DNA of 37,069 nt from IMG/VR virus record IMGVR_UViG_3300025096_000059, positions 1-37,069 of that record; one strand, written 5' to 3'. Both the position numbers and the translations under genes were made by a program. The stretch comes from a virus. Below, in pieces: positions 1-22,500 of the stretch; the stretch's first letter is position 1; each line of letters starts with the position of its first letter. The notes beneath the pieces were generated by a model. The model was not told where the DNA came from. It did not search any database and was given only the letters and a program-made list of their open reading frames with translations.

Positions 1-2896
1 TGTTAGAACAATAATCATATGTACTTTGACATATATCATCCCAAGCGTTATTACAGCAATAATCATCTACTGATATTACCCAAGCGTAACAAGGATCATT
101 TAACCAATAAGGATTGCCAGCACCAGTAACACAACCAGCGTCATAATTGCAAGAAGCGGAATCATTAACATTGGCTCCTGGATCGTAGTTGTAAGCGTTT
201 TGGTCCATACAACCTTCAACAATTGTAATACACGAACCGTTATTCGTGTTAGCCATTGAATCATAATTAAGGGCAGTGCTATCAGTACAACCATATATGA
301 AAGGAATACAACTAAAATCTTCGGTGTTCGCAGTAGGGTTATAATTGAGCATCGAAGGATCAGTACAACCATAAATAAAAGGGATACAGCTATTATTGTC
401 AACATTTGCTAAAGGATTATAATTAAACATTGTGCTGTCTGTACAACCGTAAATAGGTAGTATACAGCTAAAGTCATCAGTATTACAGCTATCACAATAG
501 TTGAGAGCCATTGGATCTGTGCACCCGTAAATATAAGGAACACACGTATTGTTGTTTGTATTTGCTAGTGGATCATAATTCCACATCGTTGAATCTGTAC
601 AACCATATAAATAAGGTATACAAGAACCATTATCTGTGTTAGCTAAAGGATCGTAGTTAAACATCATAGCATCTATACATCCATATATAACAGGAACACA
701 AGAACTATCTAATGTATTAGCTACAGGATTATAATTAAACGCAGTAACATCTGTACAACCTAATATAATTGGTACACAAGAACCGTTATTAGTATTTGCT
801 AAACTATCATAGTTAAAAGCTGAAGCATCTGTACATCCAAATATAACTGGTATACAAGAGCTATCACTAGTATTTGCAGCTGGACTATAATTAAACATAG
901 TATCGTCCATACAACCATATATAAATGGTATACAAGATGAAGAATCATTTATATTAGCAGATGAATTAAAATTAAATGCAGTAGAATCCATACATCCAAC
1001 AACTATAACTACACAACTTCCATCATCTACGTTTGCTAATGAATCATAATTAAACGCTAAAGAATTTGTACAACCTAAAACTATTGGGGTACAGGGTGTC
1101 GATGTGTTTGCTAATGGGTTATAATTTAATGCTGTAGAGTCCATACAACCATAAACTGCTGGTATACACATATTACCACAATAAGGCATTGCAGAATATG
1201 TTGGCCATAACGGAGCTTTAAAAGGTTGAAGTGCTCCTTGTCCATTATTATAAAATGGATTGGTTCCCTCTGATAATAGAGTATCTCCTAACGAACTCGT
1301 TAATAAAAACGAATTGTGCAATGTTTGAAATGCTATTTGTTGAGGTGGTTGTTGTGGTCCTCCAACTTGGAAATAGTAAACTATTATTGGTTTATCTGTT
1401 TCTAAAAGAAGTGGGAATGATTGCGTGTAATAACCAGGTCCCATTGTGAATGTCCAACTATTAGAACCTTGAGATACACCTAAATATGAATTACCCCAAC
1501 CATCACCACCATCATCTTCTATTTGTAATGTATAATTACATATTGGAACGATATCCATTGCTGTTGCATAAGGATCATAATTAAATGCGGTTGAATCTAC
1601 GCATCCTAGTACATGTAAGTTAACACATGAATTATCATTTACATTTGCTAACGGATTATATTCTTGGTATGCTGGATCCATACAACCAAGTACACTAACT
1701 GGCCCTGCGCACGCTGGTGGCCATTGTCCTCCTGAATAAGCTGTTGATCCAAATCCTGGGTTAGGTAAACTCCAAATTGTGTCTCCGTTACAATCAAATA
1801 TAGTACAAGAACCATCAATAGTTCCACCTGATGTTGAGCCCGCTAAACCATCTCCATAAGAATCGTATAATATAAATTCAAATCCTATTACACAATAAGT
1901 ATATGTAAATGTTTTACCTACATCCCCAAAATCATATTCTCCTGCTTGAACCTCATCAATTGGTTGTCCATTAGTTAAATCAATTAGTGTCCAACTCGTC
2001 TCACCTGGATAACCATCTAATGTTAAACTAATTGTTATTTCTGTTTCTAAAGAATCACACGCTATTATATCACAAGAACCATCATCTACAGTTGCCCATG
2101 GATTATAATTAGACGCTGTTGAATCCATACATCCTTGAATACAAGAGTACGGTGTATAAAACAATGTGTCTGATAATGTACTATCTGCAAACATAGCTTG
2201 GAAATATCTTTCCTCATCCCAATTAGGTGGTTGTTGTCCACTACCCATATATATACCCCAAATACCATTATTAATATTTACATCATATACTTGGTTAAAG
2301 TTTGCTGTTCCATAAAATATTTTAATTACATTACAATTAGGGTTCGGAGATGTTGTCCACTCATAATAAGTTAATACCTGAGAACCTACACATTGTTGGG
2401 TTGCCCAAGCACTATCAAAACCACCACAAGAAGGGAAGATACAAGACCCATCGTTTATTGTAGCGGTTGAATCATAATTTAACGCTATAGGATTCATACA
2501 TCCACTAGACGGAGGGGCACACGGTAATACGTTTACTGTTGTATCTCTTAAATAAAATGATACTCCTTGTAATTGCCAGTCTATAATTAACCCTTGGCAT
2601 ATGTTCTTCATTTCAAACCACGCGGGTTGAGACGATGTCCACCCATCACCAAAACTATCATTTAATATGACACGATAATTACCTGAATTTATATCTATTG
2701 TAGTATCTAAAAGTTGATAAGGAGTTGTTGGTTCGTGAAATATAACCGTATCTCCAGTTATAGTATCTTCTACCATAAACCAACTAGATTCTTGCCAACC
2801 ATAATAATCATATTGAACTTTAAAGTTTACCCAGCTATCCGGTGTTTGCGAGAATAGTATTGTAGGTAATAATAATAATAGTAATAGTTTTTTCAT
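1..2896 (-). CDS. Secreted Cys-rich repeat surface protein (3' end outside window)
   Basis: The frame is open from an ATG at 2896-2894 to the window edge, giving 965 residues with no stop, so the C terminus is missing. Residues 1-16 (MKKLLLLLLLPTILFS) look like a signal peptide ending before Gln. The body holds 17 Cys-containing units of the pattern GC(T/M)D-x-x-A-x-NYDPLAN-x-x-x-GSC; the last 13 are in tandem. Three separate D-x-x-GDG-(W/L) motifs (DSFGDGW, DSYGDGL, DDGGDGWG) lie in the N-terminal two thirds. After the repeats comes a CC-x-x-x-WD-x-x-C-x-x-x-Y-x-x-C motif at the edge. These elements are common in flavobacterial cell-surface and type IX-secreted proteins, so an extracellular adhesin is likely. 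The start overlaps the upstream stop (ATGA), implying coupled translation. No T9SS tail can be checked because the end is lost. A virion fibre is less likely given the signal peptide. Confidence 0.85.
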   Translation of the reverse strand, partial: MKKLLLLLLLPTILFSQTPDSWVNFKVQYDYYGWQESSWFMVEDTITGDTVIFHEPTTPYQLLDTTIDINSGNYRVILNDSFGDGWTSSQPAWFEMKNICQGLIIDWQLQGVSFYLRDTTVNVLPCAPPSSGCMNPIALNYDSTATINDGSCIFPSCGGFDSAWATQQCVGSQVLTYYEWTTSPNPNCNVIKIFYGTANFNQVYDVNINNGIWGIYMGSGQQPPNWDEERYFQAMFADSTLSDTLFYTPYSCIQGCMDSTASNYNPWATVDDGSCDIIACDSLETEITISLTLDGYPGETSWTLIDLTNGQPIDEVQAGEYDFGDVGKTFTYTYCVIGFEFILYDSYGDGLAGSTSGGTIDGSCTIFDCNGDTIWSLPNPGFGSTAYSGGQWPPACAGPVSVLGCMDPAYQEYNPLANVNDNSCVNLHVLGCVDSTAFNYDPYATAMDIVPICNYTLQIEDDGGDGWGNSYLGVSQGSNSWTFTMGPGYYTQSFPLLLETDKPIIVYYFQVGGPQQPPQQIAFQTLHNSFLLTSSLGDTLLSEGTNPFYNNGQGALQPFKAPLWPTYSAMPYCGNMCIPAVYGCMDSTALNYNPLANTSTPCTPIVLGCTNSLAFNYDSLANVDDGSCVVIVVGCMDSTAFNFNSSANINDSSSCIPFIYGCMDDTMFNYSPAANTSDSSCIPVIFGCTDASAFNYDSLANTNNGSCVPIILGCTDVTAFNYNPVANTLDSSCVPVIYGCIDAMMFNYDPLANTDNGSCIPYLYGCTDSTMWNYDPLANTNNNTCVPYIYGCTDPMALNYCDSCNTDDFSCILPIYGCTDSTMFNYNPLANVDNNSCIPFIYGCTDPSMLNYNPTANTEDFSCIPFIYGCTDSTALNYDSMANTNNGSCITIVEGCMDQNAYNYDPGANVNDSASCNYDAGCVTGAGNPYWLNDPCYAWVISVDDYCCNNAWDDICQSTYDYCSN
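149..1150 (-). repeat. 13 tandem 26-residue (78-bp) GC(T/M)D...NYDP...SC repeats
   Basis: The conserved Gly-Cys codon pair recurs with the Cys codon at plus-strand positions 209, 287, 365, 443, 521, 599, 677, 755, 833, 911, 992, 1070 and 1145. That gives nine consecutive spacings of exactly 78 bases, then 81, 78 and 75. Each unit has two cysteines, an NY(D/N)P core and a D/N-rich GSC end, suggesting one disulfide and possibly a metal-binding loop per repeat. The DNA copies have diverged, so this is an old protein-level expansion rather than a recent slippage array. Confidence 0.9.
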
Positions 2897-4122
2897 TTAA
2901 TAAATTTCTTTCCATTTTTAATATACATTGCCCCAGGAGACAGTATACTAAGATCGTTAATAGTTCTTCCTAATATATCATATGTTCCATAATAGATAAC
3001 ATCTGTTGCACTAACTTCTTTTAATCCTGTTGTAATAGTGAACAAATGTGTAATAGGATCAGATACACAACCGTTTACATCTTCAACAACAACAGAATAA
3101 CTACCACCAATAATGGGTGCTATAGTTTGCGTAGTCTGACCATCACTCCAAAGATAAGTATATGGAGGATTTCCATTTACAGCATTAGCTGTAAGAGAAT
3201 TACCGCTTTGTGAAATTGAAGCGGTTAATTGTCCTATACCTGCTTGTCCAGGAGGGTAAGCTGTAAAACCAAGTACGTTGTTACCTAAATCACCATCTAC
3301 TCCACCATTTGGATTACTTATTCTAACCATAATAAATTCATATCCTTGTAAACCTGTAATTGTCGGTAATATAAAATTTGTTGATTGGTAAGTACTAAGA
3401 TTACCAGTCCACGGAACGGTAGTATTAAATGTTGTAGCTCCAGAAACATCTACTTCAACATCTAATGATACTAGATTATTAATCCCATTATTCATAATAG
3501 CTATTTCAGGAGCAAGAGTTCCATCACATTGAACAGAAGCGCCTGAATAAGGCATTACTCTAGGATCATTTATAAGATTTGCCGCAGGATTACAATTTAA
3601 TAAACTATATGGATTGTTACTTTGACCTGCTTCTATTAATATTCTATCTGGACAAATCATATATATAGTTGGCCAATAAGAAATAGCATATGCCGATGTA
3701 ACGTTATCATTGTTCACGGTGCCATCGGTACAAAATATTGGGTAAGGTGTTCCTGCAACCCAATCTCCTTGTGTATTACATCCTACACCATATAAACAAG
3801 CAAGAGCATTTGCATCTCCCTCAATCATAAATACCATTACGTCATCTGTTGTGTTAGCGCTTACGCTAGGGAAACCACTAGGACCGTGATTTGTATATAA
3901 ATCTTCAAGTGTACCACCGGTATGATAACTCCAACAAGGGCCACACCATACAGCTGAGAAATCTAAAAATACTGTATAGTTATTATCTAAGTAATCATAT
4001 AAACTATGTGTAGTACCATTAACATCCGTTAGTGTCCAATCAGGAGCAATACTCAAATTTGGTAGTTGCGCACTTATTATTGTTGATAAACACAAGGATA
4101 GTATTAATAGTAATTTTTTCAT
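2893..4122 (-). CDS. Secreted thioredoxin-fold protein with SprB-like repeat and type IX secretion-like tail
   Basis: The protein has 409 residues. Residues 1-18 are a signal peptide (MKKLLLILSLCLSTIISA before Gln). Residues ~22-165 form a TlpA/thioredoxin-like domain with an intact W59-C60-G-P-C63 redox site and a cis-proline at P151 (YWPT). Residues ~205-290 are beta-rich and resemble CARDB-type domains (NPNGG-x-DGDLGNN). Residues ~298-355 contain the SprB-type signature YLWSDGQTTQ...GGSYSVVVEDVNGC. The last ~36 residues (YDILGR...GAMYIKNGKKFIK) match the terminal half of type A T9SS sorting domains, although shorter than the usual 70-80 residues. It is probably a thiol oxidoreductase exported through Sec and then possibly T9SS. 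It ends in an ATGA overlap with the next gene and starts 2 bases after the nuclease gene. The thioredoxin call is secure; surface export is inferred. Confidence 0.85.
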   Translation of the reverse strand: MKKLLLILSLCLSTIISAQLPNLSIAPDWTLTDVNGTTHSLYDYLDNNYTVFLDFSAVWCGPCWSYHTGGTLEDLYTNHGPSGFPSVSANTTDDVMVFMIEGDANALACLYGVGCNTQGDWVAGTPYPIFCTDGTVNNDNVTSAYAISYWPTIYMICPDRILIEAGQSNNPYSLLNCNPAANLINDPRVMPYSGASVQCDGTLAPEIAIMNNGINNLVSLDVEVDVSGATTFNTTVPWTGNLSTYQSTNFILPTITGLQGYEFIMVRISNPNGGVDGDLGNNVLGFTAYPPGQAGIGQLTASISQSGNSLTANAVNGNPPYTYLWSDGQTTQTIAPIIGGSYSVVVEDVNGCVSDPITHLFTITTGLKEVSATDVIYYGTYDILGRTINDLSILSPGAMYIKNGKKFIK

Positions 4123-4124
4123 AG

Positions 4125-4493
4125 TTATCGTTTTCCGCCGTGGTATTCCACAGCATGTCCTTCTTTGATTAATAATTCATTTACATTCGTCATGGTAACA
4201 CCTTCTTTACCGTCGACAATATCAATATTTAACTCACCTAAACATCTTCCATATTTTCCTACACCATGAGATTTTAATTGTATTGTTTTTGTTCCTTCTA
4301 ATAGATTCTTTAATCTATCTTTAGCCGCTAAACCCCTAGCTTTTTCTTCTAAATCCCTTGTTCTTGATTCTGGAGTGTTAATCCCCATAAACCTGATTCT
4401 TTTTTTAACTGAGACATCAAATCCTAAATCAATATAAGCATCGATGGTATCACCATCAATAACTCGATCTAATTTTATTTCGTATGTATACAT
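4125..4493 (-). CDS. Staphylococcal nuclease-like (SNase) protein
   Basis: This 122-residue protein is close to a minimal SNase domain. The landmarks align in order with the Staphylococcus enzyme: the VIDGDT strand (D15 for D21), R34 for R35, N39 for Ca-ligand D40 inside GINTPES, E42 for the general-base position E43, and R83 in GKYGRCLGEL for R87. The family hydrolyses DNA or RNA phosphodiesters with Ca2+. No signal peptide or membrane segment is visible, so it probably acts in the cytoplasm, unlike the genes on either side. Asn at the D40 position occurs in prokaryotic relatives, so activity is plausible but not certain. The ATG shares one base with the upstream stop (TAATG), pointing to translational coupling. 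Host DNA or RNA breakdown or DNA processing are possible roles. Confidence 0.88.
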   Translation of the reverse strand: MYTYEIKLDRVIDGDTIDAYIDLGFDVSVKKRIRFMGINTPESRTRDLEEKARGLAAKDRLKNLLEGTKTIQLKSHGVGKYGRCLGELNIDIVDGKEGVTMTNVNELLIKEGHAVEYHGGKR

Positions 4494-5164: not shown

Positions 5165-6196
5165 TTAAAAGATTACATAATTTACTCCACACTTAAAGTC
5201 ATACCATTCTCTATTCCAATACTTATTGTATTTTCCCTCTACAAATGTACCTAAATGCTTGTTTATTTTATATCCAAATATCATTCCACCTGAATAATCA
5301 TACCATTGTTTTCCATCGTTGTAATTATGATAAGAGAAACTTCCGCCATCATCGTAGTGCCAAGGCATTAAATTTAACCACGTGTGTAACCAAAAATCTT
5401 TCTTATAATAATAATAATCTAAACCTACCACTAATGATTGTTGCATTTTGTTATCTAATTCATTTCTTTTTTTCTCAGTATAATCAGCTAGTACTCCTGG
5501 TATTACTACTTCTTCCCAAACCTCTGGGCTTGTTGCAACAACTTCTCCAGATGGATCTGTGTAAATAGAATTATATACATCTATATCATATCCTTCTTGT
5601 ATTGCTAAATAAGTGTAATGTAAACTACCATTATCTAACAACCATTCTTCTAGTGGATCATATCCATACGGTTCTGACATTCTTTGGACTGCACCTATGT
5701 TAAGTGATAATTTACCTACATTATATCTATATCTTTGTGATGTTTCAAAGTATTCAATATCTGCAAATCCATCTTGTAGATATTCACCTTTTAGTATATA
5801 CCAATTACCCACATACCTTATAAAGTGATTTTGATTTACATAATCTACACCTTCTTGTCTTTTAATATCTGTTTCAAATAAAAATTCTAAACCCTTTACT
5901 TTACCTATACTAGCACCGTCAGACCATGAAGTTTCTGTACCATCATAAAACGTATTTGCTCTATTTTCATAACCAAACCTAGCAATCTTCCTAACTCCAA
6001 AAGCGAGATTATAATCGAATGGTGTTTGAATAGTCGATGTTTCTAATCCATTTGTAACAGAGAATACATCTACGTCTGATAAAGACGTACCTCCACTAGC
6101 CGCCGCATAAAATGTAGAGAATTTAAATAGTTTTTTAATACCCTGAGCCGCAGCTAAATTTGATATTAATAAAAATAATATTATTAGTTTTTTCAT
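5165..6196 (-). CDS. Predicted outer-membrane beta-barrel protein
   Basis: The protein has 343 residues. Residues 1-18 are a classic Sec signal peptide (MKKLIILFLLISNLAAAQ). The rest has many short amphipathic, aromatic-rich strands separated by polar turns, for example LVVGLDYYYYKKDFWLHTW and GGMIFGYKINKHLGTFVEGK. The chain ends in a strand with alternating hydrophobics and a terminal Phe (FKCGVNYVIF), which fits the BAM beta-signal. No known enzyme motif is seen. It is expected in the host outer membrane, not in the virion. The ATG overlaps the stop of the giant ejection-protein gene (ATGA), tying it to late expression. Possible roles are receptor masking or superinfection exclusion, a pore, or help in release; none is shown by the sequence. 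Confidence 0.78.
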   Translation of the reverse strand: MKKLIILFLLISNLAAAQGIKKLFKFSTFYAAASGGTSLSDVDVFSVTNGLETSTIQTPFDYNLAFGVRKIARFGYENRANTFYDGTETSWSDGASIGKVKGLEFLFETDIKRQEGVDYVNQNHFIRYVGNWYILKGEYLQDGFADIEYFETSQRYRYNVGKLSLNIGAVQRMSEPYGYDPLEEWLLDNGSLHYTYLAIQEGYDIDVYNSIYTDPSGEVVATSPEVWEEVVIPGVLADYTEKKRNELDNKMQQSLVVGLDYYYYKKDFWLHTWLNLMPWHYDDGGSFSYHNYNDGKQWYDYSGGMIFGYKINKHLGTFVEGKYNKYWNREWYDFKCGVNYVIF

Positions 6197-9100
6197 TTTC
6201 TTGTTTTAACTTTTCTTTTTTTGACTTTTCTACTAGTAGATCTACCTTTTTCTTTCTTAGTTTTTGCTTTAATCTTTTCCATCTTTTCATTCTCAACATC
6301 AAGATTATATTGACTCCAACCCATAAACATAAGCGCTCTTTGATAAGCTTCGTTTTGGTTATTTAAAGCTTGTCTCGTATTCTGTGTTTTGTTATATATT
6401 CTATTAGTCGGGGCGTTTGTAGTAGCTTCTATATAATTAGTAGTAGCTGACCATATTGGATTATCAATATCAAAAGTTTCCATTTCATCCATAACCTTTC
6501 TATTATAATTAAGAGTTCTTTCAGCGTTAACTATTTTCCTTGCTTTAATACCAAGTGGTGGTGATATATTTAACGCTTCAACAAGAACTGAAGCTTCATC
6601 ACCATTCCAATCTTTTCCTCTTTCTTTATGGAATGCAATTGCCATGTTTTTAATTGTAGCAATTGCTGCGCCCCAAACGCCAGTACCTCTTAAAACACTA
6701 TCAATACTACCATTAATCACTCTTTCTTTTTTCTTTAACCATTTTTCGTCATCTTCGTCATCTTCAAATAACGCTAAGAATAAAGCAGATTGTAAAGAGT
6801 AAAATACTAAGTTTTGTATTACAAAATAGTAAGCTATTCTAGACATGTTAGATATGTCACTTTGGAATTGGGTTGTATTACCAGGTGTTATTCTTCTATT
6901 TTTGATATCTAAAAATGCTTTCTTACCTAATCTATTAAACTGAGATGTCACGTTTTGGAAAGCAAGTATAACTTTTCCAAGCACAGATGCTTGCTGTTGT
7001 GAAACCATATCAGGTCTTGCTGATTGCTGGGTAGCTTCTGCTAATACTTGAAAATCTATCCAAGCTTTTGATTCAGCCTCTTTTTGGCTTAACCCTTGTT
7101 TTTTATAAGTATTAATTCTATTCCTATAAAAAGTAGCACCACCAGTAGCAATTGCCACATTATCTCCAATTTGGGTTGGTTTAAAACCAAACTCTAATAG
7201 TTTTCCTAACAATGCCATTGGTGTATTCTTCGCACCACGAAGTGACGCCGCTAATTCAGCACCATTAACGTCTGTTTTAATTCCACCACGTCTTTGTTTC
7301 ATAAAATCAGAGTTGAATATAAAAGCCCAATCTGCCCAATATTGTTTTTGATTAGCAAAAGCTTTAGCAGCAGCAAATATATTGTTATCTGCAAAGTTAA
7401 TAAAATTAACCATAGACATTTGCTGTAACACTGCGGAACGAATATTAAAGAACATAGTAGCTGCGACAGATCCGTTTAAATAATTTAAAAACATATTTGC
7501 AAGTTTATTTTGTCCTCGCGGTCTGTTTCTACCAGTTTTAGTTCTATAAAGTATATCTTTAATAGCGCTTACTACACCTTCTCCATAGGTAGCTTCTATT
7601 TTATTTAAATTCTCTTCAGAAAATATTATATCTGCGTTTTCATTAAATTCTTCAAAAAACTGTGCTCTACCAACTCTACCGGTAGCATCATCTAAATCTG
7701 TTCTTATATCACCAGCTGTCCAACCTTCAACGGGATTTACATAAGTATCTTGTTTAGATATTATATTTAAGGTTTCAGCATAAACTTGCAACTCTTGATC
7801 TGCGGCAACTAAATCAACTAACATTTGCTGATCAGTTTCACTTAGTCCAGGAATTTTATGACCATGCTTATCCCATAAATATACTCTTATCGCGTCTTGA
7901 TATGTAAAGTCACCATCTGGAGTTTTCTTTGTGAGTTTCTTTTTAACATTTTTAAACTCTTTATTTAATGATTTGTAATCATTAGCTATAGCTTGCTTAG
8001 CCGCGTTTAACTCTCTATAAGCTCTATTTAACGGTCTTATTAAAGCTTTCTCAAAGAAATCTCTATGTTGATTTCCTTTTTTGCCCTTACCTAGAAAATT
8101 GTAAATTATACCTACAAAATCTTCATGAGATGGTGGAATAAAGAATCTAAACTTACCTTTACTTTCCCCACGCTTTCTAGCTTTAACAGCAGAAAATCTC
8201 TTTTTAGAATCTATACCTGTTATTTCTTCTAGTATATTATTAAATTCAGTATTCATTGATTTACTAAATTTAACACCGGTTGCAGGTATACCTTTTGCTT
8301 CAGGATCTATTTTTAAGACTTTATTAAGATCTATTCTTACCTTGCCATCAACTGTTTTTATAACATTTTTTAAGTCAGAATTCTTTTCCGCTACTTTCCA
8401 CCCTATCTCTGTTAATTTGTCGTTTAATTTAATTTTTCCATACATATAAGCAATATCGCCTTTAGTGTGTTGGTGGTTTAATACATCTCCTTTTTTCATA
8501 ACCACGTCATTAGTACTCATGTCTCCAAAAGGTTGACCCCAATTATTAACAGCACTCATTTTACCATCTGGAAAGAAATTGTATGAAGCTGTAGCTTTTC
8601 CGTCTTTACTAAACTCTTTTATTTCGACTATAGCTCCGTCAGCATTATATCTTGTAGATTTAACTGTTTTACCTTTAACTCTATTTTCTACAATTTTAGT
8701 GCCTTCAGCATAACCATCTTGTGATTCTTCAAAAATTTCTGTTGTAACAGTATTACCATCTTTACTAACTGTTCTAGTTTCCCTAATGGCCTCTTCAATT
8801 TTACCATTTACATTTACGAGTTCTACTTTTTTAGTTACTCTACCCTCTTTAACATTTATAACAGGCCCATCTGTAGCATTATCCATTCTACTCCAATATT
8901 GCCCGTTTGCATAAAAAGATAACAATTTACCATCTTGAAAAATTATTCTTTTTGGGCCTTTACTATAATGTATCCAATCCTGCCAAGCATCCTCCATATA
9001 TAGTTTAGGATGTTTTGATTTAGCAATAAGACACCATGGATTAGAGTTTGGACCAAAATGAGTATCTACTACCTTCCTAACAGCCATCATTCCTTCTTTT

Positions 9101-12100
9101 GTATTGTCAACGCTATAAACAGTAATACCTTTTTCTTTGTGCTCTCCTGAAAACGTAAATTCTTCTACGTTATTTGGATTAATAGGCTTCTTTTTAACTT
9201 TACCCGCATACGTCTCTATAATTTCATTAGGATTATTATAAGAGAACAAATCTAGTTTAAATCTTTCTGCTAAGTTAATAGCGTCTGTTATTTTAAATTT
9301 ATCTTCTAATAGTTTTATATTACTTGTTGCTAACCATTTAGTTGTTATTCTTTCGTATTTTCTCTTTTTATTGTTAGGAATATCTAAACCATCTATAAAG
9401 ACAAACATATTATCTACAGTTTTAGATACTAATTTATCTTTAACTAAATCAGGGCGATATTTTGCTATAGTTTTCTCGTATTCAGCTCTGTGACTTTTAG
9501 AAAACTTAATATTATCATAAGTGCCAGGGTTAGCTAATCCACCAACATCTTTAACGTCGTTTTTAGAAGCTTCTTCTATAGATTTAACTACCTGTGGATC
9601 ACCGTGAACAAAATCAGCCTTAGCTTGTTGAACTTTTGATTTAACATCAAATTGATCTAACATGTTTTTAACAGCTTGTACGTTTTGTAACGCATCATCT
9701 GCAAAATAGAAATCATTATATCCTTCACCAACTTTTTCAGCCACCCATAACGCTTTAGCTTCCGCTGTAGAGTTACCTAAAGTGGATATATTTTTCATAG
9801 GTATATTTAATCCATTAGCTTTTAGAAAATCACGTATAGCTTTTTGTGCAGCTGGTGGTCTTGCTGTTAATATAAACATACTCTCAGGACCAAACTTCTT
9901 TTGCAACTTTAAAGCTTTATTAAACAATGGTGCTAGTTTAGCTTTTACAACTTTATCAAATTCTGCAAAATCAAATTTATATCCTTGCGCTAATAAATCT
10001 TGATACTGCGAAGCATATTGTTCTGCATTTAAAGTACCTTTTGTTCCGTCTGGAGCTGTAAATTTAACTAAAGATTTAGTTGTAGCTAATGTATCATCAA
10101 AATCTAAAACTGTAATACCTTTAGACTCGTTATTAGTAGATCTAGAAAAGCTAATAGCATTGTCTAAAGTTTTAATTGATTGTATAGTTTCTTCACTTTT
10201 AATTTTATCAAAAAACTTTGAGTTATCTATTCTTACTGCTAACTCTCCAACTTCTTGTGTAACATCTTCTTGAATTATAGATTTTTGTAATATAGAATTA
10301 AATATACCTCTATTTTTATTATTTGTAAATATTTTATTAGAATTAACAGGATTAAATACTGTTTTTTTAGATTTACTAAACGAAATATTTGAATTTATTT
10401 TTTTAGCAACACCATCTAAATAATCTACCGCAGCGTTTCTATTTATTTTATTATATATAAGTTTATCATACATTAACCCACTAGGTATATGTAAAGTTCT
10501 TTCTGCATTTCCAAGAGCTATCATAAACATAGCTTCACTATCCATACCAACTATAAAACCATCTGCTCCTGCTGTTTTACCCTGTTCTTTTGGCGGCGTA
10601 TAGTTTGGATATTTTTTCTCAAACTCCTCTGATGTAACACCATCTTTACTATCTAAAACTAATTGAGCGTCAGCATCTAATAACGTGGCGCTATACTTAG
10701 ATGATATTAATGGATATACTTTATTAAATTTATTATCAATAATACTTTTTAAAATATTCATGTTAAAATTTAATACTTGTAAGTTATGCTCGAATTGATA
10801 TCTTTTAATACCTTCTCCTCTAACTTTTTTTCTAGTAGTACTATAATCTAATGTTACAGAATTTAAAACAGCACCTTGTCTTGATATACCACTAGTAGCG
10901 CTTGTTTGTATTTGAACTAGTTTCATTACAAAAGCGATTGCCTCATAATACTCTATACTACCCTCTTCAAATTGATTAACATATTCGTTTAACTTATTAT
11001 AAAAATAATCTCTTACCGAATGTATTGCATCTATATCTTCTTGAGTTATTAACTTTCTTATTTTACTTGCTAATTCTTTTTGATTTGCCTCTGTTTGTGG
11101 TTTACCAGCATACTCTTCAACTAAATCAGCTACTTTATCTAATTTAGCGGGAGATACAGCTGTAGCATTTAGATTTCCTTTAAAATCTTTTTTACCTTTT
11201 GTATTATATTTACTAGGAATCTCATCTTTGTTAATTGATTTTGGAACAGTTTTACCTTCACTATTAACCCTAGTTCCAGAACTACGCGTATACAAAGAAT
11301 TACCAGCTAAAAATGTATTTGTTATTAATGATAGTTTTAAAATCCTAGGATCCATTAAACTAGTTAAACCTTTTAAACCAGTCATAAACTTAGTTTCACC
11401 GAATTTTGTCATAAGGTCAAGTTCCTTAACATTTCCTTCTGGAAATGCTTTTGATAAAAACTTTTTAACATTATCATAAAACGTGAAATTAATACGTTTA
11501 CCTCTAGTTATAACAGCTTCTCCCGCTGCTTCTCTAAACTCTTTTACAGTTATTTTAGGACCTAATCTACTGAATATCTTTTCAATCTCATCAAGTATAC
11601 TCTTGTCAACTGTTTCAGCATATTCTTCCGCGTGTAATGCTTTAACTTTCTCAAAAGTAGGATTTTCAATATTTTTAATAGCATTTGCGAATTTTTTTAC
11701 ACTTTTAGAAAACTTAATTTGATCATTATAATTACCCCTAAGTTCTTTCTTTTGTTTATTTAATTCATTTGCAAAATCTCGAAGTTTAGCTTGTATAACA
11801 GCGTCTATATCATTAGAGTTTTCTATAATCTCATTATTGATAACATCTTCTGTTATTCCTTTAGCTATTTGATTAGCTAATCCTTTTTGTCTAGCTAATA
11901 AAGTTGTATATCCTCCTTCCGTAAAGAACTTTGTAAACTTAGCCTTATTAGTTTCAATTTTATATATACTTTTTCTATAATAACTATCTTTTTTAAGACC
12001 AGGTTTATCTGCTTTTCTAGTTATTCTATCTTCTTTACCTATTTCAGTAAGTTCAAATAATGTTTTATAATTATTTTTAATAGTATTAACGTCTAAACTT

Positions 12101-15100
12101 TGAACGATGTTTGCGTAGTTCAATGCCATGAACGCTTTGTATTTTTCGCTTATAACAACTTCCCCTTTTATATTGGAAATTTTACCCATTTGAGTCTTAA
12201 CAGCTTTGGTAATTTCTTTATTTATAATCTTAGTTATTTGCTCTTCTAAGTTTTTAGGGTTTTGTTCTATTAAAGTGTCTATCTCAGCTCTTACTGTAGC
12301 AGATATTACTTCTCTATTATCAAGTTTTATATCAGCTAAACTCTTTAACACCCTAGCTTTAGGTTCTATTTTAGGTGCTTTTTTAGTTTTTGTAGGCTTA
12401 TCTTCTATTTGCATAGCCTCCTCAGTGTCTATACGTATTGTTCTTTTTGTTTCTTGACCTTTTTTGTATAACTCTGTTGCAGCATCTAACTTAGCAAAAC
12501 CAATATCAGCCATTATTCGTTCACCAATAGTTATTTCTTCTTTACTGCCTGTTTTTCTTTTTGCTTGAGGATCGTAATTCATTAATCTATTACGAGCTGA
12601 AATTATAGTCTCTTTAGTTTTAGCTGGACTCATGCCAAGACTTTTAATATAATTATTTATAGCACCGTCGTCAAGATTTATAGATTCAAAAAGATCGTTA
12701 AACTCTGGACTTCTTTGAAATTGTTCTTTTGTATATTCTTTACCTTGTTCTTCTAATCTATTTTTTAAACCTTGTTCTATTTTATTTACAGCTTCAACAG
12801 CTTCTGATCGATCTTCAACTTTAGCTGCTTTTGATCTTGATTTAGAAAACTTAGAAGTTTCTTCTGTCTCACCTTCTTTTGATACACGTTTACCACCAGT
12901 AAATTCATCTTCAGCTGCTCCAGCAAACTCAAGCATTCTTTCACTAAGTTTACCTTCTTTAACGTTTTGACTATATTCTTTCATAAAGTTAAAAGCGTCT
13001 TCACCAGTTTCTATACTTAAATTTTTATAGGGTGTACTTTCATTAAAGAACCCAGCTACTTTATTTTTTATACCATCAAAAAACCCTTTACTATTTTTGT
13101 ATGTTATATTATTTTTTTTATTCTCTATAATATCAGATAATGCAGTAAACCACTCGTCAGTGGTTGACATTTGTTCTTCTGACATTCCATAGCTTTTTCT
13201 AAGTCTATTTTCAATAGCATCAACAACATTTTTTCCAAGATTTTTTTCTACATTTAATTTAAAATCAGAGATCAAGTTTTTAACTCTACTTCCACCGTCT
13301 TCAGCATCTAACGCTTTTAAGTTAGCTAAAGCACCTTTCATAACACCGTGTAATACCTCGTGCGAACCAGCGTCTAGTGCTTTGTATTTAAAAGCCGCCT
13401 CCTCATTAATCATTATAGCTTGATTACCATCAGCAGTAGGAATATTAACAGCATCGGACTGATTTGCGCTATCTGCTATTCTGTTAGCCTCTGCTGCAAT
13501 CTGTTCTTCAGTCATAGTAGATAAATCAACAAACTTGCCATCGAAGTTATATTTTCCAAGAGACATTACTCTTTCAACTAAAGCGCTTACAAACTTACTA
13601 TTTTCTTTAAAACTTTCAAAAGGATTAAAACCCATTTGCTCACTAGCAATTTTAGCAAAAGCTTTTGTTTTTTCTAACCAAACGCTTCTAACGTCTTGTG
13701 CTACTTTCTTTCTAGCCTTGACATCCGTTGTTCTACGATCAACGCTTTTATATTTATCTATAACCCCAGCAATCTCAGCTTCTATATTCTCTAGAGTAAC
13801 ATCCGCATCGGCAACAGCAAAAATACCTTTCTTTTCAGTATCAGCTTCAGCTTTAGCTCTTTTCTTTTCTAATTTAACTAATTTTTCTCTATCAACTTCA
13901 GCTACTCTTTCATCTATCTGTGTTTTAAAAATAGCTTCTTGTTGTTTTTGATTTACAAAATCATTAAGATTTCTATCACCTTTTATGTCAAATTGAACTT
14001 TAGCTAGGTTTTCAGGTTTCATGCTATTAACCTTATTCATAACTTCTTTTCTAGTTCTTATCTCACCGTTTATTTTATATTCTTTTTTAGCGAGAATATC
14101 AGCAACGTTTACAACACCTTTTGCTTCAGCAACACCTTCCATTAAAACCTCAGCTATATCAAACTCTTGTCCAGCGACAACCTGTCCTAAAGCTTCACCA
14201 CCAGCTCCACCACCCATTTCAATACCTGTTACCCGTCTAGCTATTTTACCTTTACCAGCTCCAGCTTCATATAATTTAGAACCAACACCTCTTGATAAAC
14301 CAACAGTTATACCTTCTATAGCGCCAATTGTAGCACCTCTAGCTAAAGCCCTATCTTTTATATCTTCAAAAAGTTCCTCGTCTTCTAATATAGCTCTAAT
14401 ATTTTCTTCATTAAAATCTTTATCACCAAGTTCTGTTTTTAGTAGCTCTGTTAACGTTAAAGCTGTTTCCATAGAACCTACTAATCCAGCAACAGCACCA
14501 CCAATAGCTCCAGTTGCGGTACCAATTATAGGCACAAAGCTACCAGCGGCAGCAGCGGTAGCACTTGTAGCTCCAGTAATCAAAGCAGCTTCTTCAGAAT
14601 CGAAAAATGTTCTAGCCATTGCAGCGGCAGAACTAACTATAACTTGTGGTATAACTTGACCTCTAGTTTGAACCATTCCTTTCATAAAACCCCAAACACC
14701 ACCACCAGCTTCATTCTTTATTTCTTCGTATTTACGCATTTCATCTGAAGCACCAGTTTTATCTAAAGCATTACTTATTTCGATGTATCTTCTTAATTCT
14801 GCGCCAGATATATTTTTACCTTTTTTATAGACATCAAAAGCTTCATCAACCGTGGCTCCTTGAGCCATACCTTGTTCACCGGCTCTCCATAAATCACCAA
14901 GCCAATCAGTTGCAAAGTTTTTACCTAAAGTTCTTTCAATCCAAGTATCGTCTTCTTTAGAACCTTCTATATCAACTTGTGGTAATTCTATTGGACCTAT
15001 ACCCATCATGTCATCTTTCTCTTCTAAAATATCTAAACCAGAAATAGCTTTAACATAAGCATCTAGACTTAACCCATTACTAGCAGCTTCCCTAGCAATC

Positions 15101-15144
15101 TCTTCCTGCGTAAAAGTTTGATTATTATAAGTATAATTTGGCAT
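6193..15144 (-). CDS. Giant polyvalent internal virion (ejection) protein, 2983 residues
   Basis: A very large multidomain protein at the end of the virion genes, where podoviruses encode DNA-ejection proteins (T7 gp16 position). Seen in order: Gly/Ala-rich hydrophobic segments at ~165-240; a long charged helical stretch; a zincin-like site H595-E-V-L-H599 with E664 as a possible third ligand; a HAD-like domain at ~1676-1855; a domain with P-W2037-C2038-L-I; YwqK/MORN-like repeats at ~2092-2185; a C-terminal conserved region at ~2330-2840 (FFIPPSHEDF; SVLGKVILAFQN) with hydrophobic helices near 2772; and a basic Lys/Arg tail. Six F-S-[KR]-S motifs divide it. This matches the 'polyvalent protein' architecture described for phages and conjugative elements. 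It probably enters the host with the DNA, with the domains acting on host targets; that is inferred. Its stop overlaps the next start. Confidence 0.8.
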   Translation of the reverse strand: MPNYTYNNQTFTQEEIAREAASNGLSLDAYVKAISGLDILEEKDDMMGIGPIELPQVDIEGSKEDDTWIERTLGKNFATDWLGDLWRAGEQGMAQGATVDEAFDVYKKGKNISGAELRRYIEISNALDKTGASDEMRKYEEIKNEAGGGVWGFMKGMVQTRGQVIPQVIVSSAAAMARTFFDSEEAALITGATSATAAAAGSFVPIIGTATGAIGGAVAGLVGSMETALTLTELLKTELGDKDFNEENIRAILEDEELFEDIKDRALARGATIGAIEGITVGLSRGVGSKLYEAGAGKGKIARRVTGIEMGGGAGGEALGQVVAGQEFDIAEVLMEGVAEAKGVVNVADILAKKEYKINGEIRTRKEVMNKVNSMKPENLAKVQFDIKGDRNLNDFVNQKQQEAIFKTQIDERVAEVDREKLVKLEKKRAKAEADTEKKGIFAVADADVTLENIEAEIAGVIDKYKSVDRRTTDVKARKKVAQDVRSVWLEKTKAFAKIASEQMGFNPFESFKENSKFVSALVERVMSLGKYNFDGKFVDLSTMTEEQIAAEANRIADSANQSDAVNIPTADGNQAIMINEEAAFKYKALDAGSHEVLHGVMKGALANLKALDAEDGGSRVKNLISDFKLNVEKNLGKNVVDAIENRLRKSYGMSEEQMSTTDEWFTALSDIIENKKNNITYKNSKGFFDGIKNKVAGFFNESTPYKNLSIETGEDAFNFMKEYSQNVKEGKLSERMLEFAGAAEDEFTGGKRVSKEGETEETSKFSKSRSKAAKVEDRSEAVEAVNKIEQGLKNRLEEQGKEYTKEQFQRSPEFNDLFESINLDDGAINNYIKSLGMSPAKTKETIISARNRLMNYDPQAKRKTGSKEEITIGERIMADIGFAKLDAATELYKKGQETKRTIRIDTEEAMQIEDKPTKTKKAPKIEPKARVLKSLADIKLDNREVISATVRAEIDTLIEQNPKNLEEQITKIINKEITKAVKTQMGKISNIKGEVVISEKYKAFMALNYANIVQSLDVNTIKNNYKTLFELTEIGKEDRITRKADKPGLKKDSYYRKSIYKIETNKAKFTKFFTEGGYTTLLARQKGLANQIAKGITEDVINNEIIENSNDIDAVIQAKLRDFANELNKQKKELRGNYNDQIKFSKSVKKFANAIKNIENPTFEKVKALHAEEYAETVDKSILDEIEKIFSRLGPKITVKEFREAAGEAVITRGKRINFTFYDNVKKFLSKAFPEGNVKELDLMTKFGETKFMTGLKGLTSLMDPRILKLSLITNTFLAGNSLYTRSSGTRVNSEGKTVPKSINKDEIPSKYNTKGKKDFKGNLNATAVSPAKLDKVADLVEEYAGKPQTEANQKELASKIRKLITQEDIDAIHSVRDYFYNKLNEYVNQFEEGSIEYYEAIAFVMKLVQIQTSATSGISRQGAVLNSVTLDYSTTRKKVRGEGIKRYQFEHNLQVLNFNMNILKSIIDNKFNKVYPLISSKYSATLLDADAQLVLDSKDGVTSEEFEKKYPNYTPPKEQGKTAGADGFIVGMDSEAMFMIALGNAERTLHIPSGLMYDKLIYNKINRNAAVDYLDGVAKKINSNISFSKSKKTVFNPVNSNKIFTNNKNRGIFNSILQKSIIQEDVTQEVGELAVRIDNSKFFDKIKSEETIQSIKTLDNAISFSRSTNNESKGITVLDFDDTLATTKSLVKFTAPDGTKGTLNAEQYASQYQDLLAQGYKFDFAEFDKVVKAKLAPLFNKALKLQKKFGPESMFILTARPPAAQKAIRDFLKANGLNIPMKNISTLGNSTAEAKALWVAEKVGEGYNDFYFADDALQNVQAVKNMLDQFDVKSKVQQAKADFVHGDPQVVKSIEEASKNDVKDVGGLANPGTYDNIKFSKSHRAEYEKTIAKYRPDLVKDKLVSKTVDNMFVFIDGLDIPNNKKRKYERITTKWLATSNIKLLEDKFKITDAINLAERFKLDLFSYNNPNEIIETYAGKVKKKPINPNNVEEFTFSGEHKEKGITVYSVDNTKEGMMAVRKVVDTHFGPNSNPWCLIAKSKHPKLYMEDAWQDWIHYSKGPKRIIFQDGKLLSFYANGQYWSRMDNATDGPVINVKEGRVTKKVELVNVNGKIEEAIRETRTVSKDGNTVTTEIFEESQDGYAEGTKIVENRVKGKTVKSTRYNADGAIVEIKEFSKDGKATASYNFFPDGKMSAVNNWGQPFGDMSTNDVVMKKGDVLNHQHTKGDIAYMYGKIKLNDKLTEIGWKVAEKNSDLKNVIKTVDGKVRIDLNKVLKIDPEAKGIPATGVKFSKSMNTEFNNILEEITGIDSKKRFSAVKARKRGESKGKFRFFIPPSHEDFVGIIYNFLGKGKKGNQHRDFFEKALIRPLNRAYRELNAAKQAIANDYKSLNKEFKNVKKKLTKKTPDGDFTYQDAIRVYLWDKHGHKIPGLSETDQQMLVDLVAADQELQVYAETLNIISKQDTYVNPVEGWTAGDIRTDLDDATGRVGRAQFFEEFNENADIIFSEENLNKIEATYGEGVVSAIKDILYRTKTGRNRPRGQNKLANMFLNYLNGSVAATMFFNIRSAVLQQMSMVNFINFADNNIFAAAKAFANQKQYWADWAFIFNSDFMKQRRGGIKTDVNGAELAASLRGAKNTPMALLGKLLEFGFKPTQIGDNVAIATGGATFYRNRINTYKKQGLSQKEAESKAWIDFQVLAEATQQSARPDMVSQQQASVLGKVILAFQNVTSQFNRLGKKAFLDIKNRRITPGNTTQFQSDISNMSRIAYYFVIQNLVFYSLQSALFLALFEDDEDDEKWLKKKERVINGSIDSVLRGTGVWGAAIATIKNMAIAFHKERGKDWNGDEASVLVEALNISPPLGIKARKIVNAERTLNYNRKVMDEMETFDIDNPIWSATTNYIEATTNAPTNRIYNKTQNTRQALNNQNEAYQRALMFMGWSQYNLDVENEKMEKIKAKTKKEKGRSTSRKVKKRKVKTRK
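8268..12849 (-). repeat. Six dispersed F-S-[KR]-S linker motifs in the giant protein
   Basis: The motif occurs at F766 (SKFSKS), F1145 (IKFSKS), F1589 (ISFSKS), F1666 (ISFSRS), F1881 (IKFSKS) and F2293 (VKFSKS), each within disordered-looking polar sequence between predicted domains. The codons differ between copies (Ser as TCT, TCG, AGC and AGT), so the conservation is at protein level. The coordinates given run from the last to the first Phe codon. Confidence 0.75.
9600..10119 (-). other. HAD phosphatase-like domain inside the giant protein
   Basis: Residues ~1676-1850 carry the HAD signature in order: motif I VLDFDDT with D1681 and D1683, motif II ILTARP with T1760, a Lys at 1797 in AEAKALWV that fits motif III, and motif IV FADDA with D1816 and D1817. 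All catalytic positions appear intact, so phosphohydrolase activity is plausible. The nearest shape is the small HAD enzymes of the nucleotidase/polynucleotide phosphatase type, but the substrate cannot be read from the sequence. F-S-[KR]-S motifs occur on both sides (F1666 and F1881). Confidence 0.8.
13153..13362 (-). other. Zincin-like HEVLH metallopeptidase motif inside the giant protein
   Basis: H595-E596-V-L-H599 sits in a predicted helix (DAGSHEVLHGVMKG). About 65 residues on, the segment STTDEWFTAL offers E664 as a gluzincin-type third ligand. This arrangement is recurrent in phage polyvalent proteins. It could process host proteins or the polypeptide itself. A five-residue motif can arise by chance in a chain this long, but the downstream acidic helix supports the call. 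Confidence 0.6.
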
Positions 15145-19540: not shown

Positions 19541-22500
19541 TTATTTACTACTTTCTGTTACTTCAGAACTGACCGAGAATAATTCAGCTTTATCTATAGA
19601 ATTGTTTTTAAACATTGCGTCAGCATAATATCCCGATAAACTAGACGTATTTATTGATTGATTTTTAGCAAACATGATATAATCTTGTGGGGTTGGTAAA
19701 GTACCGCTGTTATCTACGGTTACAGTGTTATTAGTTAAATTTGTTACAACGCCACATTTTTGTAGTTGATCAGATTCTATTCTTGTAAAACCAAAAACCT
19801 TTCCGGTATTAACTTCTTTTACTGAAATATTATCTATTGTTCCATCAAAAGCATCACTACTATATATCATTATTGTATTCGTATTGTTTGATCCCTGAAC
19901 CCAACGGACTTTATGTGTTGCTACTGTGTTCGATTCTAAAAGATCGATATCTATACCACCCACCCCGTGACCAGATAGCACTAACTCACCACCGGTACTT
20001 ATGACTGTTATATCATAAGTTATTTCATACAGTTCTCCTTCGGTAATTCCATTAACATCTTGGTGTAAAACACCTGGTTCAACTCCACTTACAGCTATCC
20101 CGCCATCTAGTGACCATGCAAGTTCAGGGTTAACAATCCAAGCAGAATCTATATTACCACTCGCAAAATCTCCATCAGCAATTAGTTCTTCACCTAGTAC
20201 CTCCGATAATCTTTCAAAATATAAAGTATCACCAATTTGTAGTGAAGAATTTATATTGCTAGCAAAAGTTATTTCGTTAGCATGCATACTATCAACAGTA
20301 CCTATTCCTTGTATATCGAACGATCCGAAATCTGTTGTTGAGTCTACATCAGAATCTATACCTTTAATATAATTAAACCACTTCCCTTCTTTTTCTATGA
20401 ATTCGTGTAAGTTACCTTCTTGTTTATCTGTTTCAATATTACTAACATACCAACCATCCTTAGGCATAGAATTAAAATGATTAACAGTTTCTTCTTGTTG
20501 TTGTGTAGTTATAACATCACCAACTTGCCAATCACCGTCTATACCAATGTAAAACCCCCTAGAATTTATTTTCACGCCATGAATTCCACCACCCGCAGGA
20601 TCATTCCATACCCGCGCTAAACCTGTCCAAATTAAAATGTTATCTCTATATTGCTTTACAGGAATTGAAGTATTACCTACAACACCACCAACCCCTGTTG
20701 GTTCCGTGTTAACATGGCTTATATCTACTATGGTATTGAAATCTTCTTCACTCATATAGAAAAACATTCCATCTGGATAAGAGTTAGGATTTGTGCCATC
20801 TGCTAAGCTATAAACAATACCATCGACCGTGATATTTCTAATACCTTCAACTCTAGATTGACTACCTTCATAATCTAAAGTGTGAAAAGATTTTACACTT
20901 CCAGGTTGATCGTTCAGTACAACGTTTATACTAGAGTTCGTATAATTACCATAAAAAGTGTTTCTACCTACAGTGTCATCGTAGTGTTTATATAGTTTAC
21001 CATCTAATATTGTAAAGTAATTATTAGCACAACTAACAGCGTTTTCTGGAACGAATGATTTAAAACTTATCCAACCCCTAACATCTTCTCTAAATGATAC
21101 AGTTGTAACATCACCAATAGTTATGTTATACTCATCATTCCTATCATCATAACTACCAATAAGTTTGTTACTAGCTTTTAAATTATCTCTAAACCAATCT
21201 TTCATACCATGCATAGAAATAGGTGTTAACCCGTCTCTTGATAATCTCATTACTGCACCTCTCTGTTTATCTGTAAAGTAAGATCTATACGCTTCAGAAA
21301 CAAATGACTCTGGATTTTTAGATATTCCATATTCACCAACAAACGGTATAGTTTGTCCTAATACATTTTGTGTAGCGGTTAAATTAGGATTTCCATCTGC
21401 ATTATATACAGCGTCTTTACTAGCTAAAATTCTTAAAACCTTATCTTCACACAAAGTAACTAAATCTGTGTCTCTAGTATGTAGTTTTTGAACACTACCA
21501 TATATTGGGTTTATATCTTTTGTGATCTTCTCAGCTTGGATAAATTGATTTAAATTGTTAATACCACTAGTACTATTATATAATCCAGAATATATTAAAC
21601 CGTACTTCCTGTGTTCTTCTTTATACTCACCTTCTTCTAACACGGTAGATGCCTTAACGCCGTTTGATATATACGCTAAGTTAAAATTGTCTCTAATTCT
21701 ATTTGACTCTACGCCATTACCAAAAGAGTAACAATTAAACCAATTTAGATCATATACTACATTTGAACTGTATAATTTAGTATCTATTGTTAACGTATTA
21801 GTAGAGGTACCGCTAGTATAAGCACCTATACTTATAATAGTGCAGGTAACAGAAGACCCATCCGGTTTTGTTATTTTAAGCTTATCAAGTGGATCGCTCT
21901 CTACCCCTTTAGCGTTTATAAACCCTGTCCCTGTAAGTACACTTGTACTAAGCGTTATAGTTCCAGCGCTAGTTATAGAATCAACAGTCGTACCAGCGGG
22001 AATTAAATTACTTCCAACGTGACTTACCGTAGACCCTATAGGTATTGCTAAACTTTTAGTATCATCAGTTAATAGTATTGGGTTAAGTCCACTAGCTTCA
22101 TAATAAATATCTAAATCAGCTGACTCTTTAGGTTCTGTTTCCCATATAGCTGGATTACTTGGTAACTCGTCCTCAATTTCTACAGCCTCAATAAAGTCTA
22201 TATGATAACCTATAGCCATTAAACCAGGAGTATCAATAGTAAAAGTACTGCTATTAGCATTAATTCTATTGGCAGAATACTCACTATAACCATTCATTGC
22301 AGGTTGTTCAAAAACCATATTTTGACTTTGGGCTGGTATAGTAGTATACAAATCATGTGTACTAGATAATATAGCAGAATATCCCGTTAAATATAAGTTA
22401 TATGTAGTCACTTCGTTAGGAGCGGTACCAGTAGTTACTTCTTCAATTTGCCATATAACCAACCAGTCTTCATCTGTCTCTGATCCATCTGTGTTTCCTG

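Follow-up and report, generated by a model that had tools for sequence, protein, structure and literature searches.

The giant protein and its repeated motif

The window analysed here is the whole of the IMG/VR virus record IMGVR_UViG_3300025096_000059 (37,069 nucleotides). Its minus strand carries, in a single open frame, a giant protein of 2983 amino acids (aa) in which the short motif F-S-[KR]-S recurs exactly six times. An earlier note had drawn attention to these six copies and to their [SIV]-[KS] contexts, and all of them were confirmed at their positions (SK, IK, IS, IS, IK and VK precede copies 1 to 6). The protein and its parts are listed from the N terminus onwards; pLDDT is the predicted local distance difference test score and HAD/PNK denotes a HAD / polynucleotide-kinase-like domain.

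6193-15144, minus strand: giant multidomain (polyvalent-type) cargo protein, predicted to be in the virion, 2983 aa
13867-14961, minus strand: N-terminal segment, aa 62-426, matching phrog_32588 (unknown function; E 1.2e-51)
12907-13578, minus strand: zincin-like domain, aa 523-746, with the HExxH plus downstream E pattern
13348-13362, minus strand: HEVLH, aa 595-599, motif of the zincin-like domain
13153-13155, minus strand: E664, putative third zinc ligand, downstream E of the zincin-like domain
12838-12849, minus strand: copy 1, TSK-FSKS, aa 766, C-terminal side of the zincin, segment with pLDDT<50
11713-12837, minus strand: module aa 770-1144, between copies 1 and 2, swapped among relatives
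11701-11712, minus strand: copy 2, QIK-FSKS, aa 1145, end point of eight alignments with relatives, segment with pLDDT<50
10381-11700, minus strand: module aa 1149-1588, between copies 2 and 3, found in few relatives
10369-10380, minus strand: copy 3, NIS-FSKS, aa 1589
10138-10149, minus strand: copy 4, AIS-FSRS, aa 1666, N-terminal border of the HAD domain, 18 alignment starts nearby
9466-10140, minus strand: HAD/PNK-like domain, aa 1669-1893, with DFDDT motif, matching phrog_415 (E 4.6e-6)
9493-9504, minus strand: copy 5, NIK-FSKS, aa 1881, border of HAD domain and WC segment, cluster of alignment ends
8269-9492, minus strand: WC segment (NPWCLIA), aa 1885-2292, inserted module with a motif copy on both flanks
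8257-8268, minus strand: copy 6, GVK-FSKS, aa 2293, border of the C-terminal domain, 18 alignment starts nearby
6196-8268, minus strand: C-terminal domain, aa 2293-2983, the most conserved part of the family (68% mean column identity, alignment A1)

As in polyvalent proteins, several unlike modules (zincin-like, HAD/PNK-like and others) are joined in one polypeptide and exchanged among relatives. A search of the whole protein against Pfam and PHROGs returned the phrog_32588 and HAD/PNK matches and no Pfam match. No catalogued polyvalent domain was detected by Pfam in the window protein and six relatives, the relatives giving one sub-threshold SHOCT match. By eye, a repeated pattern of the type YDPxxG..L..YI...I at aa ~850-900, also present in relatives, looks like sigma-70 region 2.

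The earlier note had the copies bracketing the zincin, HAD, WC and C-terminal segments. This held at the HAD, WC and C-terminal borders, whereas the zincin is flanked by a copy on the C-terminal side alone. In most relatives the HAD domain runs directly into the C-terminal domain without the WC segment, and in one relative (L006) a match to aa 1867-2045, the WC region, lies at a different place in the protein, again adjoining FSKS. The window protein and L022 both have an extra module between the HAD and C-terminal domains, with the motif or a near-motif at each end. Copies 3 and 4 are spaced by only 77 residues, and in the first set of relatives copy 2 and copy 3 were each spanned by one alignment. 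An AlphaFold2 model of aa 480-1165, which takes in copies 1 and 2, places both of these modelled copies in linkers predicted to be disordered.

Six copies compare with 0.06 expected from composition shuffles, the maximum in 5000 shuffles being 4, and FSKS ranks first by over-representation when every 4-residue pattern of the giant protein, with or without gaps, is considered. FS[KR]S was absent from the other 16 of the 17 window open reading frames (ORFs) checked. These counts bear on whether the motif is a compositional accident of Lys/Ser/Phe-rich linkers. The linkers are indeed polar and rich in Lys; the shuffles, together with the family, other-ORF and FSX counts given below, nevertheless refute this reading, to which we assign a negligible probability.

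The serine codons are informative as well, since the TCN and AGY classes lie more than one mutation apart. For copies 1 to 6 the S-[KR]-S codons read TCT-AAA-TCA, TCT-AAA-AGT, AGT-AAA-TCT, TCT-AGA-TCT, TCT-AAA-AGT and AGT-AAA-TCA. Because TCN and AGY serines are mixed among the copies, the repetition is at the level of protein, which bears out the earlier claim that differing codon usage reflects protein-level selection, and a DNA-level repeat was rejected on the same ground.

The motif across related proteins

Relatives of the whole protein numbered 22, and more loci were found with the C-terminal domain, at least 431 contigs being available. The matches used amount to at least 182 distinct related proteins in viral contigs, and the family counts, tree and concordance below are all drawn from these relatives. 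FS[KR]S occurs 147 times in 168 related proteins, against 10.7 expected, and N-terminal of the conserved C-terminal border it occurs 61 times against 2.6 expected, whereas 926 other ORFs on the same contigs gave 7 against 5.7 expected. The non-redundant consensus at positions -2 to +3 is [VI]-[KMQ]-F-S-[KR]-[ST], and most relatives have A[KR]VKFSKS at the site of copy 6. For at least 19 sites, neither flank resembles that of a site already counted, so that the motif stands in many unrelated contexts.

We then compared motif positions with the breakpoints of local alignments. In the first set, 38 of 41 copies lay within 12 aa of a breakpoint, against 8.4 by chance, and FSX with any other X occurred near breakpoints at the background rate. 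The enrichment in the larger set was 12.8-fold (2.5-fold once the dominant C-terminal and HAD borders were left out), with control FSX at 0.95 to 1.13. Border enrichment in homologues, the absence of which had been named beforehand as a ground for abandoning the idea, is thus present. These comparisons strongly support a selected and recognised linker element that is enriched at module borders.

The position at breakpoints, and the copy at each end of the inserted modules in the window protein and L022, are also what one would expect of a recombination seam, left over from the joining of cassettes or serving as DNA homology when domains are shuffled, and without function in the protein. Yet the codons differ among copies, with TCN and AGY serines mixed also among the FSE copies of the E-type proteins described below, and the residue at a homologous border shifts so as to agree with the remaining borders in the protein, something not expected of a passive seam. 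We therefore regard a seam as improbable.

This shift concerns the residue after F-S, which is usually K or R, is E in some proteins and is rarely A, Q, N or L. E-type proteins number eight (L002, L009, L043, L087, L096, L117, L118 and L119), so that all E-type statistics are those of eight proteins, four of them with a similar motif context (L043, L117, L118 and L119). Two proteins are of the A type, FSAG (L066 and L120), and three have ESK-like borders (L014, L016 and L019). The residue at the C-terminal (C) border agreed with that at the HAD border in 57 of 71 proteins, compared with 43.3 by shuffling; agreement was 40 of 53 (27.5 by shuffling) after close relatives were collapsed and 38 of 48 (28.3) without the L043 clade, the main E/A clade. 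Between the C border and the site [SGRT][KR]x[AV]FSX it was 17 of 22 against 8.3 (p 5e-5), with a few of the 22 being other pattern-fitting sites, such as FSP, scored as disagreements.

Sites elsewhere in the protein follow the same direction. With a filter for internal sites that was set by eye and drops conserved in-domain FS sites, also used for the tree pairs and the zincin-class comparison below, FSE occurs at 1.19 per 1000 aa in proteins whose C border is FSE and at 0.20 in K proteins; for FS[KR] the rates are 0.36 and 1.09, respectively. Mapped on the C-terminal-domain tree, E requires 6 changes, at least 4 of them by supported branches; when independent pairs are compared, the remaining sites change along with the border in 3.1 of 4 on average and hardly ever in the opposite direction. 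Furthermore, the homologous module border AQ[SG][KR]xAFS-X has K, E or A according to the type of its protein, which indicates that the tag has been fitted to the protein and is not merely carried along with the module; hitch-hiking of the motif with modules was rejected accordingly. Within the reach of sequence comparison, the concerted change shows the sign of one shared reader, without telling which.

The zincin-like domain as candidate reader

Among the matches listed, HExxH or HHDxxH is present in all but one full-length protein. In the canonical domain H73, E74, H77 and the downstream E142 are invariant in 69 homologues, and HExxH with a downstream Glu ligand identifies the domain as zincin-like by sequence. 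In a model of the domain (predicted template modelling score, pTM, 0.76) strands precede the HExxH helix and the E starts a later helix, the same order of elements as described for polyvalent metallopeptidases, MPTases (PMC5512222). A few family members match Peptidase_M78, M4 or M90, weakly.

The E variant is linked to the type of zincin. Of the 47 proteins that lack the canonical zincin, 8 have an E border; of the 117 that possess one, none does (p 2.9e-5, kinship ignored). In five proteins (L002, L087, L014, L016 and L019) the zincin motif is HHDxxH, with the catalytic Glu changed to Asp, and the border is FSE or ESK. In the C-terminal-domain tree, L009 (FSE, with HELGH) and L040 (FSKS, with HELLH) are sisters with branch support of 100. 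This contrast and the restriction of E favour, on sequence grounds, the zincin over a structural docking partner as the reader.

We therefore consider, with moderate confidence, that the motif is a cleavage or recognition site in disordered linkers, read by the embedded zincin, which would divide a modular cargo polyprotein. The zincin appears to be the best-fitting reader because the copies in one protein vary together and E occurs only with non-standard zincins. In such a scheme, the zincin would cut at or beside each tag of the same polypeptide, in cis or between copies of the protein, and would free the zincin, the HAD/PNK-like domain, the WC module and the C-terminal domain. Release might take place around or before the time of packaging, or once the cargo has been ejected. 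The scissile bond may lie before Phe, since a large hydrophobic residue at P1' is preferred by thermolysin-like peptidases. There is also a precedent: zincins have been predicted to process polyvalent proteins, and P1 DdrB is described as processed (PMC5512222).

Several points weigh against cleavage by the zincin. The proteins with HHDxxH, in which the catalytic Glu is Asp, retain FSE or ESK-like borders, and several divergent zincins (HELQH, HEVGH and HEAFH) retain the K-type motif, so that zincin class is not a strict determinant of the variant. The zincin-domain models gave no significant match to structure databases with Foldseek and VIA-align. C borders without any [FY]S site make up 37 of 164; FSN and FSQ at the C border are mostly confined there, the other sites not following; and the phylogenetically independent pairs number only 4, too few for significance alone. 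An HExxH domain is also present in the N4 virion RNA polymerase, which is packaged without processing (PMC5512222), and a recombinant full-length protein, cited beside this polymerase, has been solved (PMC12633501). Cleavage of the window protein is so far a prediction.

A different reader would fit part of these data. The motif could be recognised by a phage or host protease acting in trans, by a chaperone of packaging or ejection, or by a docking partner in the virion, with no need for the internal zincin; the concerted change leaves the identity of the shared reader free, K-type motifs accompany several zincin subtypes, and the crAss001 cargo protein gp45 contacts the portal and the tail barrel by separate segments (PMC10172136). 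A docking partner should, however, track the structural lineage, and yet the sisters L009 and L040 differ. Moreover, no known prohead protease was matched among the structural genes scanned in PHROGs, several of which had no match at all, and the E variant is restricted, among the matches listed, to proteins without the usual zincin. On balance we think such a reader possible but less likely than the embedded zincin.

If the zincin is the reader, the built-in zincin and the linker tags (FS[KR]S, FSE and FSAG) of marine crAss-like phages may form a co-evolving lock and key, a suggestion that we put forward tentatively. Modules could then be freely swapped provided that their borders carry the local tag, which would account for the exchange of effector modules with no loss of maturation. 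No domain is commoner than the zincin in phage polyvalent proteins, whose self-processing has been proposed since 2017, the cut site being unnamed in the available part of that source (PMC5512222). A candidate motif that co-varies makes the question directly testable in vitro, and it marks module boundaries in 300-kDa proteins that are otherwise unannotatable. The site would tend to escape routine tryptic proteomics because trypsin cuts after the K or R inside the motif.

Known systems and the genome neighbourhood

The earlier note had named motif enrichment in large phage proteins as a check and had pointed to FSR/FSK-type linkers in other phage polyvalent proteins. Enrichment was seen within the family, as counted above, but not outside it, FS[KR] occurring 11 times in 14 unrelated giant proteins from LPD38-type loci against 10.0 expected. 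Such linkers elsewhere found no support: besides these 14 giants, FS sites are missing altogether from P1 DarA and Hdf, and the motif was not found in crAss001 gp47, where HEAFH is present. The portion of P1 DdrB examined has one FSE, and three FS[KR] occur in each of crAss001 gp49 and gp50. Searches with ART-PolyVal and LPD3 for further loci yielded too few or too partial ones, and literature searches found no FSRS or FSKS motifs in phage proteins. In the unrelated LPD38-type giants (L292, L297, L308, L310, L312 and others), [FY]YS[KR] occurred 9 times against 0.52 expected; this pattern was chosen post hoc, with some sites at apparent domain borders and 3 of 9 inside the C-terminal block of one protein, and we do not claim an excess.

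There is a formal likeness to the polyproteins of RNA viruses, in which one embedded cis-acting protease serves several similar linker sites whose residues co-vary within a genome. An embedded protease, here putative, and similar, co-varying linker sites are shared; here, in contrast, the virus is a double-stranded DNA phage, the products are probable ejected cargo and not replication proteins, and cleavage is predicted only. No description of such a strategy for tailed phages was found in the literature searched. The polyvalent zincin-like MPTase proteins of Iyer et al. 2017 resemble the window family in giant size, exchangeable modules, HExxH with a downstream Glu and predicted self-processing; they differ in that no recognition motif is described in the available part of that paper (PMC5512222), and in their Pfam domains, which, as noted above, were not detected here. 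The SPN3US prohead protease gp245, which cuts after A-X-E (PMC10052503), offers a parallel in its short repeated virion motif, phage protease and self-cleavage, the cleavage being predicted in our case. The motifs differ, and the window sites lie between modules of one protein, not in the propeptides of many.

The neighbourhood of the giant gene resembles the cargo region gp45-gp50 of crAss001, with a muzzle-like gene upstream and a giant protein downstream (PMC10172136). The order in the window is muzzle, three ORFs and the giant protein, and that in crAss001 is muzzle, gp45, gp46 and gp47. Gp47 (2341 aa) shares an HExxH, HEAFH, with the window protein, but is without the motif. From this gene order, the giant protein is likely a virion cargo protein of a marine crAss-like phage. 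A tblastn search with it against the annotated phage collection at E 1e-5 gave no match, distant homology to gp47 still being possible. Portal, terminase and virion-protein families were matched among the structural genes (PHROGs). Two further features are as follows.

19541-27721, minus strand: the other giant ORF, 2726 aa, muzzle-like (crAss_MUZ_C, 28.2 bits against a cut-off of 27), motif-free control
4125-4493, strand not stated: small staphylococcal-nuclease homologue (SNase, 47.4 bits), adjoining the cargo gene

FS[KR] is absent from the 2726-aa muzzle-like ORF. Its muzzle C-terminal domain lies just over the Pfam cut-off, and the 37-kb record is far shorter than crAss001. Finally, the ORF at 2893-4122 has weak AhpC-TSA/thioredoxin and SprB-repeat matches, all under the Pfam cut-off, and its C terminus resembles, by eye, a Bacteroidota type IX secretion tail; it is possibly a host-derived secreted redox protein carried by the phage.

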